Positions 8,879-20,609 of a stretch of DNA of 34,413 bases are shown piece by piece. The position numbers and the translations under genes were made by a program. The DNA comes from Clostridia bacterium. Its GTDB lineage: Bacteria; Bacillota; Clostridia; Oscillospirales; CAG-272. The stretch lies in NCBI GenBank assembly GCA_017466625.1, contig JAFTTT010000111.1:1-34413 (forward strand), given 5' to 3'. The notes below the pieces were generated by a model, which saw only the letters and a program-made list of their open reading frames with translations, searched no databases and had not been told where the DNA came from. Each line of letters begins with the position of its first letter. The first letter of the stretch is position 1.

Positions 8879-9193
8879 TTATGCCTCTTCCTTTTCGCGG
8901 AGCTTATCAAGACGGCTGTTGCGGAAGTAAAGGCAGATATCAATGGAGATCATAACGAAGTTAAGAACGTAGAAGAAGAAGCTGAGAACGAAGAGAAAAT
9001 CGTGAGTTACGCTCGGATCAAGGGTCTGAATAGTCTTGCGGATTATTCCACAAACATATCCAAGGAGAAGGAAAACCTCAAAAAAGAGACTCTTTCCCTT
9101 TGCGGTACGAGCTATGTACGACTTGCGGATCGAGATCGGCCAGGATAGACCGAAGCAGAATATTGTCAAAGCTTCAAGAAGATCGGTTATCAT
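8879..9193 (-). CDS. Small PQ-loop/SWEET-like membrane protein
   Basis: A 104-residue protein with about three membrane helices: residues 4-22, 36-56 and 67-90. The first helix ends in a PQ-loop-like segment (FGLSWPISIRKSYIARTAKG). Proteins of this size in Clostridia belong to the SWEET/PQ-loop group, small carriers or half-carriers. It begins 18 bases after the frdA stop and is the last gene of the fumarate operon. It has only one His (in VTHDF) and no heme- or quinone-site pattern, so it is not an FrdC/FrdD-type anchor. A role in solute movement is possible but unproven. The ribosome site is weak (AAGGA about 13 bases upstream), suggesting coupling to frdA. Confidence 0.65.
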   Translation of the reverse strand: MITDLLEALTIFCFGLSWPISIRKSYIARTAKGKSLFFEVFLLLGYVCGIIRKTIQTLDPSVTHDFLFVLSFFFYVLNFVMISIDICLYFRNSRLDKLREKEEA

Positions 9194-9211
9194 TTTTTCA
9201 CACTTATCCTT

Positions 9212-10861
9212 TTATTTCATCAGTTTTGCATTTGGTTCATCATACACGGGATTTCCGTGAGTATATCTTGGAAGAAGCTTGGGAGATACCTCGTCGGTAA
9301 CGATGCCGTTATCTGCCATTTCCTTCTTGAAGCTCTCAACGTGAGAAAGCGTAAGAGCGGACGGCTTCTCGATCTCGGCTGCGGTCTTTGCCGCGTTGAT
9401 TCCCGCGTTGCGTCCGAAGACGATGATGTCAAGAAGCGAGTTACCCATCAGGCGGTTTTCGCCGTGGATACCGCCGACCGCTTCGCCTGCCACAAAGAGA
9501 TTGGGCACGTCAGACATACCGTTTTCGCTTATCTTGATACCGCCGTTCTGATAGTGGAGCGTCGGATAGATGAGTATCGGCTGCTTACGCATATCAATGC
9601 CGTATTTAAGGTACATACGCATCATTGCGGGGATCCTCTTCTCGATGGTTCCCTCTCCGTGAAGCATCTCGATCATAGGCGAATCGAGCCATACGCCCTT
9701 TCCGCCGTTAAAGGTATCGACGCCCTTACCGCGTCTGCACTCGCGTATAACTCCCGAAGCGCAAACGTCACGGGTCTCAAGCGAGTACATAAAGGGCTCG
9801 CCGTCACAGTTTACGAGCTGTGCGCCGATAGAACGCACCTTTTCGGTTACGAGCGCACCGAATATCTGCGAGGGGTAAGCGGCACCCGTCGGGTGATACT
9901 GCAACGTGTGCGCATAAAGGAGCGGAGCGCCTGCACGGTATGCGAGAACGAGTCCGTCTGCCGTTGCGCCGTAGTGGTTCGAGGTCGGGAAGCCCTGATA
10001 ATGCATTCTACCCGCGCCGCCCGTTGCGATGATAACGGTCTTTGCTCTTGCAATAAGGATCTCGTTCGTCTCCATATTCATAAGGACTGCGCCTGCGGCG
10101 TTGCCCTTTTCGTCCTTGATTATCTCGATCGCCGAGGTGAAATCCACGACCTTTATGCCTCTGTTCTGCACCTCGTCGCGCAGAACTCTCATTATCTCAG
10201 CACCCGAATAGTCCTTGCAGGCGTGCATACGCTTGCGGGAAGTTCCGCCGCCGTGGGTCGTTACCATGGTACCGTCGGGCTCTTTATCGAACATAACACC
10301 GAGGTCGTTCAGCCACTTGATACAGATAGGCGCATCGTTTACCAGCTTGTAGACAAGCTCGGGAACGTTCTTGAAATGTCCGCCGCCCATAACGTCAAGA
10401 TAGTGCTGTGCGGGGCTGTCGTTCGGCTTATCTGCCGCCTGGATACCGCCCTCTGCCATCATCGTATTGGCGTCGCCGTGGCGAAGCTTGGTGACGATCA
10501 TAACGTCGGCACCGTTTTCTTCAGCCATAATAGCCGCCGCAGAGCCGGCTCCGCCGCCGCCGATTATAAGCACGTCGACGTCATAATCTATCTTATTAAG
10601 GTCGATCCTTTCGGGATCGATTCTGGGGTTTGCCTGGAGTATGCCTGCAAGCTCTATCGGCACTCTTTCGCCCTTATTCGGACCGATCTTCAGCGTTTCA
10701 AACTGATCCTTTATATGGTCGGGGTGGTTTTCAAGAAGCACCTGATCCTTTTCCTCCGCGGTCATTCTGCGGGGATGAATACCGTTCAGCGCGTTCTTGA
10801 CTCGCTCTTCACGGGTCGCCTCGACCTTTTTGATCGATTCAAGCATTTCGTTCGTATACAT
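9212..10861 (-). CDS. frdA: Fumarate reductase flavoprotein subunit, soluble type
   Basis: A 549-residue FAD protein of the SdhA/FrdA family reducing fumarate to succinate. The Rossmann motif VLIIGGGGAGSAAA begins near residue 97, so about 90 residues precede it, far more than in E. coli FrdA. Catalytic and substrate residues are all present: HPTG (about 323), the E and R of VTEKVRS, R in TRDVCASG, H in PTLHYQNGG, and R in NRLMGNSL. The covalent-flavin His (HTxxAxGG in FrdA) is Asn here (ANTMMAEGG), so FAD should be non-covalent, as in methanogen TfrA and L-aspartate oxidase. The C-terminal domain is short. The start at 10861 has GGAGG. An Fe-S partner lies upstream; no membrane anchor subunit is present. 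Confidence 0.88.
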   Translation of the reverse strand: MYTNEMLESIKKVEATREERVKNALNGIHPRRMTAEEKDQVLLENHPDHIKDQFETLKIGPNKGERVPIELAGILQANPRIDPERIDLNKIDYDVDVLIIGGGGAGSAAAIMAEENGADVMIVTKLRHGDANTMMAEGGIQAADKPNDSPAQHYLDVMGGGHFKNVPELVYKLVNDAPICIKWLNDLGVMFDKEPDGTMVTTHGGGTSRKRMHACKDYSGAEIMRVLRDEVQNRGIKVVDFTSAIEIIKDEKGNAAGAVLMNMETNEILIARAKTVIIATGGAGRMHYQGFPTSNHYGATADGLVLAYRAGAPLLYAHTLQYHPTGAAYPSQIFGALVTEKVRSIGAQLVNCDGEPFMYSLETRDVCASGVIRECRRGKGVDTFNGGKGVWLDSPMIEMLHGEGTIEKRIPAMMRMYLKYGIDMRKQPILIYPTLHYQNGGIKISENGMSDVPNLFVAGEAVGGIHGENRLMGNSLLDIIVFGRNAGINAAKTAAEIEKPSALTLSHVESFKKEMADNGIVTDEVSPKLLPRYTHGNPVYDEPNAKLMK

Positions 10862-19653: not shown

Positions 19654-19664
19654 CTTGTCTCTCC

Positions 19665-20609
19665 TTATATTCTGAGCTGATCTATTACTTCTCTTAATTT
19701 GCTCGCGCTGTAATGAAGCTTTGCTATCTCTTCCTCGGTAAGAGGAGAAATGAGCTTTCCGTTTACTCCGCCGCGTCCGACTATCGAAAGGATCGAAAGG
19801 CACACGTCGTTTATTCCGTACTCTCCGTTCATCATCGTCGAAACCGAAAGCGCGGTATCTATTCCGCGGAAAACGCAGGAGCAAATGTGGTTGACGGTAA
19901 GGGCGATAGCGTAGTATGTAGCTCCCTTTGCCGTGATTATCGTCGAGCCGGATTTTCTTACGTACTCCTCGATCTCGGCGTGGTTAAAGCCGGAGCCGTC
20001 GACCTCGAGTCCCTTCGACTGCGCGTACATGTCGATAGGCGTTCCCGAGATCGTCGCAAGCGACCACGGTACAAAGGAAGAATCGCCGTGCTCTCCGAAA
20101 ACGCTCGCGTGAACGTTCTGCATGCTTATCGAAAAATTCTCTGCGATTTTCGAGCGCAGACGCGCGGTATCGAGAAGCGCACCCGAGCCGATTATCTGTT
20201 TTTCGGGAAGTCCCGAGCAACGGCAGAATACGTAGGTCAGTATATCGACGGGATTGCTGACTATAATATACACCGCGTTCGGCGCGACTGCGGTTATTTT
20301 GGGAATTATGCTCTTGATGATATCAACGTTCGTCTGCGCAAGGTCAAGACGCGACTGTCCCGGACGGCGCGCGATACCTGAGGTAACTATGACGATATCG
20401 GAATTCTTCGCATCGGGATAATCACCCGAATACACGTTTATAGGCGGCGTAAAGGGCGAGCCCTGTCTTATATCCATTGCTTCACCGAACGCCTTTTGCT
20501 CGTTGATGTCTATGAGCACGACCTCTGACGCGTTGCCGCTTACCGCCAGTGTATATGCTATTGTCGCACCGACCGATCCGGCACCGATTATCGTAACTTT
20601 TCTTCCCAT
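19665..20609 (-). CDS. mdh: LDH-fold malate dehydrogenase (Arg at the specificity position)
   Basis: A 314-residue NAD-dependent 2-hydroxyacid dehydrogenase. IIGAGSVGATIA and LIDIN mark an NAD(H)-binding Rossmann fold. Most motifs are those of L-lactate dehydrogenase (SNPVDILTY, GSGALLDTARLR, FGEHGDSSFVPWS, KGATYYAIAL). The specificity loop reads ARRPGQSRLDL, so residue R81 replaces the LDH Gln102 of the aligned NQKPGETR, and Arg here is the malate dehydrogenase hallmark. With fumC and frdA following in the same unit, oxaloacetate reduction to malate is the likely job. It is the first gene of the operon. Homology searches may label it lactate dehydrogenase. Confidence 0.75.
   Translation of the reverse strand: MGRKVTIIGAGSVGATIAYTLAVSGNASEVVLIDINEQKAFGEAMDIRQGSPFTPPINVYSGDYPDAKNSDIVIVTSGIARRPGQSRLDLAQTNVDIIKSIIPKITAVAPNAVYIIVSNPVDILTYVFCRCSGLPEKQIIGSGALLDTARLRSKIAENFSISMQNVHASVFGEHGDSSFVPWSLATISGTPIDMYAQSKGLEVDGSGFNHAEIEEYVRKSGSTIITAKGATYYAIALTVNHICSCVFRGIDTALSVSTMMNGEYGINDVCLSILSIVGRGGVNGKLISPLTEEEIAKLHYSASKLREVIDQLRI

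Follow-up and report, generated by a model that had tools for sequence, protein, structure and literature searches.

A conserved hdr-flx-frd gene cluster in Clostridia predicted to encode a soluble, NADH-dependent fumarate reductase that may also reduce ferredoxin

The window analyzed here is a stretch of 34,413 nucleotides (contig JAFTTT010000111.1 of the Clostridia bacterium assembly GCA_017466625.1), which forms contig 110 of a 1.56-Mb metagenome-assembled genome (MAG) that is 87% complete. Between positions 8879 and 20609 it carries twelve minus-strand genes, reading from a malate dehydrogenase gene (mdh, beginning at 20609) to a gene for a small membrane protein (ending at 8879). We consider it probable, at roughly 60%, that this cluster encodes a soluble, NADH-dependent fumarate reductase that would bifurcate electrons to ferredoxin. 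The evidence for linkage of the hdr, flx and frd genes is strong, and the interpretation of the cluster as a single enzyme is partly supported; the coupling to ferredoxin is a prediction from sequence, and the novelty of the enzyme idea is modest, as others have put forward similar proposals.

To assess linkage we used FrdB as a query against 391 genomes of the class, and 54 gave matches (E <= 1e-20). The loci of the 53 genomes other than the window's own were combined with those of the best 80 of at least 528 confirmed relatives for a total of 133 loci, 124 of which have distinct FrdB proteins. Because these loci were picked by FrdB similarity and come mostly from close kin, they are not independent samples. 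Requiring that the genes lie on one strand with no other same-strand open reading frame (ORF) of at least 80 residues in between, we found the order hdrB-hdrC-hdrA-mvhD-flxC-flxB-flxA-frdB-frdA in 99 of the 133 loci (94/124 of the distinct ones). Of the 34 remaining loci, 31 end at a contig edge, with the first core gene at most 88 bases away, and follow the same order in the rest. One further locus (L020) has hdrA in two overlapping ORFs, covering residues 1-255 and 251-662 (G173:C34:71787-73771), which is either a real split or an assembly error, and another (L116) has the core with one extra small ORF. The most distant locus, with 53% FrdB identity (L035/L139, in genome G269), is complete in another order, fumAB-frdBA-hdrBCA-mvhD-flxCBA.

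The same linkage is seen across genomes. Searching the 391 genomes with HdrA (E <= 1e-100) gave 57 matches, and the two proteins occur together in 53 genomes, FrdB alone in 1, HdrA alone in 4, and neither in 333 (Fisher p = 1.5e-59, uncorrected for kinship). The FrdB-only genome (G071) is fragmented, and its contig ends in flxC. Among the HdrA-only genomes, one (G032) holds a contig-truncated copy of the same module, two (G022 and G037) have other hdr contexts with no frd gene within 18 kb, and the fourth (G065) has an HdrA match like that of G037. HdrA is thus nearly always accompanied by FrdB in the sampled class. The first-pass annotation had claimed an hdr/flx/frd linkage and had proposed its conservation in relatives as a check; the linkage is clearly kept. 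This near one-to-one co-occurrence is new relative to the published proposals, and the presence of FrdB in 53 of the 57 HdrA-bearing genomes marks which genomes to test.

Two further observations concern the distribution of the module. Four named MAGs titled Spirochaetota (L102, L103, L109 and L117) carry it with FrdB about 78% identical, likely reflecting transfer between phyla unless the binning is wrong. Several relatives have, close to the module, an additional gene with about 30-38% resemblance to part of HdrA: it lies upstream of mdh in L048, L068, L106 and L126, and downstream on the other strand in L087.

Examination of the ORFs and family searches bore out the earlier claim of twelve minus-strand genes with named families; the gene starts given are our own choices. 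Adjoining genes overlap by 4-13 bases or are separated by 11-18 bases, with the exceptions of fumC-hdrB (52 bases) and hdrC-hdrA (243 bases). HdrB (17409..18224) has two CCG domains (PF02754 twice) and matches a PDB HdrB (8rvv_B, E 6e-31). Its ten CCG cysteines are conserved at 1.00 in 98 sequences, and therefore both non-cubane clusters are predicted to be present; it is the sole CCG protein found in its own MAG. HdrC (17029..17412) has two [4Fe-4S] sites, its eight cysteines being conserved at 1.00 (n=97), and scores 73 bits against TIGR03290, below the cut-off of 160. HdrA (14794..16785), the candidate bifurcating FAD subunit, likewise scores below the cut-off of its family model (NF040770, 804 bits against 1100) and aligns full-length to the methanogen HdrA (5odc_A, E 1.7e-211). 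Across 101 sequences, conservation reaches 0.92-1.00 at 30 of its 34 cysteines, and E359 and K413, the equivalents of Glu356 and Lys409 of 5odc, are present in 101/101. This Glu/Lys pair has a role at the flavin. HdrA retains the Fe-S ligands and flavin-site residues of the 5odc protein, as expected of a bifurcating HdrA.

The remaining subunits of this part of the operon are predicted to bring in electrons. MvhD/FlxD (14366..14806) is assigned by PF02662 and by its match to 5odc_D (E 1.6e-53). Two Fe-S proteins follow, one FlxC-like (13395..14378; Fer4_8 and other domains, with three PDB matches that are all formate dehydrogenase chains) and one FlxB-like (12383..13402; PF17179, matching the sulfhydrogenase 1 beta chain 9nez_B at E 2.4e-43). 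The FlxA-like FAD/NAD(P)H oxidoreductase (11563..12390; PF00175, PF00970 and PF10418) is the predicted point of electron entry.

FrdB (10875..11549), identified by family matches, carries twelve ligand cysteines conserved at 1.00 in 125 sequences. Grouped into clusters by analogy, as we assume, these supply a [2Fe-2S] cluster (C39, C44, C47, C65), a [4Fe-4S] cluster (C110, C113, C116, C158), and a full ligand set for a second [4Fe-4S] cluster (C120, C148, C151, C154). Because this second set is complete, the [3Fe-4S] cluster of the quinone side is not expected, the cluster type being predicted from the ligands. FrdA (9212..10861), identified by family searches, has Asn132 in 114/114 sequences where SdhA has the covalent-FAD His, together with H323, T339, E340, R343, R364, H436 and R470, likewise in 114/114. 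PF02910 was not found at the frdA of the module; its 16 matches, in 13 of the 54 FrdB-bearing genomes, all lie elsewhere. The first 90 or so residues form an N-terminal extension that is modelled with confidence (predicted local distance difference test, pLDDT, 77-95 per ten-residue block) and falls outside all 29 PDB sequences matched at E <= 1e-40. As a whole, the model is closest in fold to the E. coli fumarate reductase FrdA (1kf6_A), and the best NCBIfam model for FrdA is TfrA (341 bits against a cut-off of 718). L-aspartate oxidase models score close to the FrdA models and likewise fall below cut-off; we preferred FrdA because FrdB is adjacent.

The first-pass annotation had described the module as lacking a membrane anchor. 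For the Sdh_cyt family this proved correct, as PF01127 was found in none of the 54 FrdB-bearing genomes and in 7 of 14 named control genomes; the FrdC and FrdD families (PF02300 and PF02313) were not searched. The module resembles complex II and quinol:fumarate reductase in FrdA fold and catalytic residues, and differs from them by the lack of the covalent-FAD His, the [3Fe-4S] site, PF02910 and the Sdh_cyt anchor. It also resembles TfrAB of methanogens, a soluble FrdA with FrdB-like and HdrB-like parts. Methanogen TfrB is one protein fusing the two parts, whereas here they are separate genes, with no fusion among the scanned loci. The earlier comparison with TfrB is right as an analogy, since the TfrB model aligns with FrdB over its N-terminal part and with HdrB over its C-terminal part; the scores of 40 and 34 bits are far below the family cut-off of 385.

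The genes flanking the core point to fumarate as the substrate. L-lactate dehydrogenases have Gln at position 102, which we take to be equivalent to residue 81 of the first gene product (19665..20609; LDH-like family, PF00056/PF02866). That residue is Arg in 68/68 aligned sequences, and malate dehydrogenase (MDH) is therefore the better name; the L-lactate dehydrogenase call, made above cut-off by NCBIfam, was set aside for the same reason. Of 72 distinct loci with sufficient flanking sequence, 51 have an MDH gene next to the module. The second gene (18277..19653) encodes a class II fumarase, FumC (TIGR00979 fumC_II, 723 bits, cut-off 665). Across the same 72 loci, FumC is present in 51 and the class I two-subunit fumarase FumAB (PF05681 plus PF05683) in 12, of which 11 were called by script and L035 by hand; both are present in none and neither in 9 (p = 1.9e-8). 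Fumarase thus alternates between two unrelated classes, an exchange that is new here.

A similar alternation is seen at the other end of the operon. The last gene (8879..9193) encodes a 104-aa protein with three hydrophobic stretches by hydropathy and no Pfam or NCBIfam match, and it occupies the slot that in many loci holds a gene of PF06826 (Asp-Al_Ex). Of 105 loci, 68 have a PF06826 gene directly after frdA, 9 have the 104-aa gene there, and 28 have neither. Within 3.3 kb of frdA the counts are 63, 11 and 22 of 96, and the two never occur together (p = 2.2e-6). We regard this exporter exchange as new. The 104-aa protein has 1985 homologues, none with a Pfam domain among the 120 listed, and its motif GLSWPxSIRKS...TAKGKS seems to us reminiscent of PQ-loop/SemiSWEET proteins, with no database match. 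SucE, the AAEx succinate exporter of Corynebacterium glutamicum (PMC7419537, PMC12014714), appears to belong to PF06826, this family being equated with AAEx from its Pfam name and NCBIfam matches. Five additional ORFs, 534-542 residues long, were checked: four (L005, L059, L115 and L135), each immediately following the exporter gene, encode ATP-dependent phosphoenolpyruvate carboxykinase (PEPCK), and the fifth (in L035) encodes a sodium:solute symporter. A single stretch can therefore hold genes for phosphoenolpyruvate carboxylation, for MDH, for fumarase, for fumarate reductase and for export.

By analogy with known HdrABC complexes, FlxA would accept hydride from NADH, and the electrons would reach the HdrA flavin by way of FlxB/FlxC and MvhD. 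There the path would divide: on one side ferredoxin would be reduced through the ferredoxin-like domains of HdrA, and on the other HdrC, both non-cubane clusters of HdrB, and FrdB would lead to the non-covalent FAD of FrdA, where fumarate would be reduced. MDH and fumarase would feed fumarate, and the terminal membrane protein, of the SucE family in many relatives and the 104-aa protein here, would export succinate. The first-pass reading of a cytoplasmic, NADH-dependent fumarate reductase holds on composition and conserved linkage; beyond these, we infer the physical complex with its HdrBC-FrdB contact, the bifurcation that would reduce ferredoxin, the export, and the direction of the reaction. 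The fumarate/succinate couple has an E0' of +33 mV. NADH and ferredoxin lie at -320 mV and -420 mV, respectively (PMC5861303). By our own arithmetic, the reaction of 2 NADH with fumarate and 2 oxidized ferredoxins comes to about -68 + 19 = -49 kJ/mol under standard conditions, and bifurcation would therefore be energetically affordable. A possible outlet for ferredoxin, FeFe hydrogenase, is present in 52 of the 54 FrdB-bearing genomes, and in this MAG the enzyme found belongs to the monomeric B1 type.

We also asked how the fumarate reductase genes relate to the remainder of the operon. A near twin of the window, L056, resembles it at 93-100% over the span mdh-flxA, with 95% for FrdB and 91% for FrdA; in L056 a PF06826 gene takes the place of the 104-aa gene. 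A tree of the seven Hdr-Flx proteins from 75 loci places the pair with L078 and L072 (support 1.0) and L066 (0.998). When FrdBA is used for the tree, the pair joins L057-L062 instead (support 1.0), whose HdrB proteins are only 55-63% alike, and L078, L066 and L072 fall elsewhere. Correlations of pairwise distances over 55 loci were 0.72 for frdB-frdA, 0.25-0.61 for Frd against Hdr-Flx, and 0.46-0.86 within Hdr-Flx; because the last range is wide, this is a weak contrast alone, and the tree conflict is the better evidence. FrdBA seems to move as a pair and to land at the same place in the operon, which is new here and supports a stable FrdAB unit with a tolerant interface. The stretch comprising frdBA and the terminal gene (8879-11549) is seemingly of other origin than the rest of the operon.

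The idea of such an enzyme is already in print, from 2019-2020. The same mechanism was proposed for the "succinate operon" of Pseudoclostridium thermosuccinogenes (Koendjbiharie et al. 2020, PMC7282089, citing a 2019 preprint), which is described as containing fumarate hydratase, a seven-gene Flx-Hdr set, a two-gene fumarate reductase and, last, a putative succinate transporter. The window likewise has fumarase, seven-gene Hdr-Flx and frdBA together in one gene run. Compared by description rather than by sequence, it differs in having mdh at its head and the unclassified 104-aa membrane protein last. The P. thermosuccinogenes operon was up about 4-fold at low CO2, which we count in favor of our reading, and in the portions of that report dealing with the operon the coupling of NADH-fumarate activity to ferredoxin is assumed rather than measured (PMC7282089). 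In reductive tricarboxylic acid (rTCA) clusters of tubeworm symbionts and Thioflavicoccus mobilis, flxABCD-hdrABC is interspersed with korABCD and with tfrAB, a putative fumarate reductase, and mdh is also present; the authors suggest a complex handing electrons directly to fumarate reductase (PMC6315080, 2019). Again by description, those clusters differ in having TfrAB rather than a split FrdB, korABCD in between, and an rTCA context. The first-pass annotation knew of no characterized enzyme of this composition; it was unaware of the proposals in these two papers (PMC7282089, PMC6315080).

Other relatives share the input module. We know of no FrdBA partner for the FlxABCD-HdrABC complex of Desulfovibrio vulgaris. 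That complex (Ramos et al. 2015; Ferreira et al. 2023) has HdrABC, MvhD/FlxD and FlxABC-type input, with electron transfer from NADH to ferredoxin proposed (PMC7282089, PMC6037941, PMC10504309, PMC10920352), and it differs from ours in its second acceptor, DsrC or disulfides. MvhADG-HdrABC and MetFV-HdrABC-MvhD share the HdrABC-MvhD core and are described as bifurcating (PMC5861303), with other donor and acceptor modules.

The same composition could work without bifurcation, Hdr-Flx serving as a wire that passes all electrons to fumarate. Fumarate has a high enough potential to accept electrons from NADH unaided. Moreover, homologues of EtfAB, HdrABC or the like have been held to be insufficient evidence of bifurcation (PMC5861303), and RnfC exceeds its cut-off in only 26 of the 54 genomes. 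A plain wire would leave both ferredoxin-like domains of HdrA partly idle, despite the conserved cysteines and E359/K413 described above, and we consider it unlikely. Less credible, and in our judgment distinctly unlikely, is a pair of enzymes joined by a thiol/disulfide carrier, in which HdrB would be the site where Flx-Hdr reduces a disulfide, the resulting thiols then serving as electron donors to FrdBA, on the model of TfrAB with CoM-SH and CoB-SH. The complete set of HdrB CCG cysteines and the exchange of FrdBA as a unit would fit such an arrangement, as would DsrC, the reported Flx-Hdr partner in Desulfovibrio (PMC10504309, PMC10920352). FrdB, however, has no CCG domain for thiol oxidation, so that a further component would be needed, and no thiol carrier gene was recognized among the twelve genes. 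It is very improbable that the flavoprotein reduces some other unsaturated acid or that the module runs backwards, oxidizing succinate. Sequence gives the substrate without certainty, and the scores of FrdA fall well short of the cut-offs set for fumarate reductase and succinate dehydrogenase models; the fumarase gene in 63 of 72 loci, with the MDH, PEPCK and SucE-family genes, nevertheless points to fumarate and to release of succinate, and the backward reaction would spend reduced ferredoxin on succinate oxidation.

Several points weigh against the bifurcating fumarate reductase that we favor. The thiol protein DsrC is reported to bind FlxABCD-HdrABC directly in D. vulgaris (Ferreira et al. 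2023, cited in PMC10504309); because of this, and because the CCG cysteines are all kept, some disulfide yet to be named could be the real substrate of HdrB. The history of FrdBA is partly apart from that of Hdr-Flx, as for a separable enzyme, and thus the exchange cuts both ways. Gene fusions that would prove contact were sought in the scanned loci and none were found, and the predicted structure of FrdB was poor (mean pLDDT 62) and was not used, so that it gives no evidence of an interface. No fumarase is in reach at 9 of the 72 loci. RnfC is over its cut-off in just 26 and PEPCK_ATP present in just 16 of the 54 genomes, and neither is found in this MAG (87% complete), where a 427-aa RnfC-like protein is far below the RnfC cut-off; how ferredoxin would be used and where oxaloacetate would come from are therefore weak points of the reading. 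A Rex box was searched for at the operon head and not found (of 7 loose matches in the whole window, where 3.8 would be expected, none lies there), and Rex control of the operon was set aside. Finally, the biochemistry of such an enzyme was not found in the literature searched, a search in which most subscription journals and preprints were not included and which later work may have overtaken.

If the bifurcating fumarate reductase is real, gut Clostridia without a complex II anchor would form succinate in the cytoplasm while conserving some of the energy in reduced ferredoxin, and succinate, H2 and acetate yields would be linked in the rumen and gut. Fumarate would join the short list of acceptors driving HdrA-type bifurcation, and HdrB would gain a role outside disulfide chemistry. 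A bolder picture, which we find less likely than not when taken as a whole, is that HdrABC-FlxABCD was captured as the input module for a detachable fumarate reductase; that the non-cubane clusters of HdrB, made for disulfides, act as an internal two-electron relay into FrdB; that FrdBA is exchangeable in place between lineages without leaving the operon; and that the 104-aa protein is a new kind of small succinate exporter.

Outside the coding sequences, a promoter-like site (TTGAAT-17-TATACT with TG; 20648..20676, minus strand) precedes mdh; it is weak evidence, because 12 such sites occur in the region where 11.8 are expected by chance. Upstream of the operon are a LysR gene and then a terminator-like hairpin. 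Downstream lies rex (8139-8786), behind its own consensus promoter (12/12 match); a rex gene is also found near the operon in a number of relatives, either downstream or before mdh. The 243-base hdrC-hdrA spacer (16786..17028) is unusual, the median across 96 loci being 15 bases, and a minus-strand search listed no internal terminator within it. A 29-base piece of this spacer recurs at 29840-29868, and its 17-base core has two copies in the MAG, both inside the window. Further upstream, on the same strand, is an hrcA-grpE-dnaK-dnaJ-prmA-like cluster (21862-27582), read from the translations, with prmA assigned by family match. At 30257-30700 lies an ORF for an MT-A70-like methyltransferase, which at 147 aa falls short of the domain's length.

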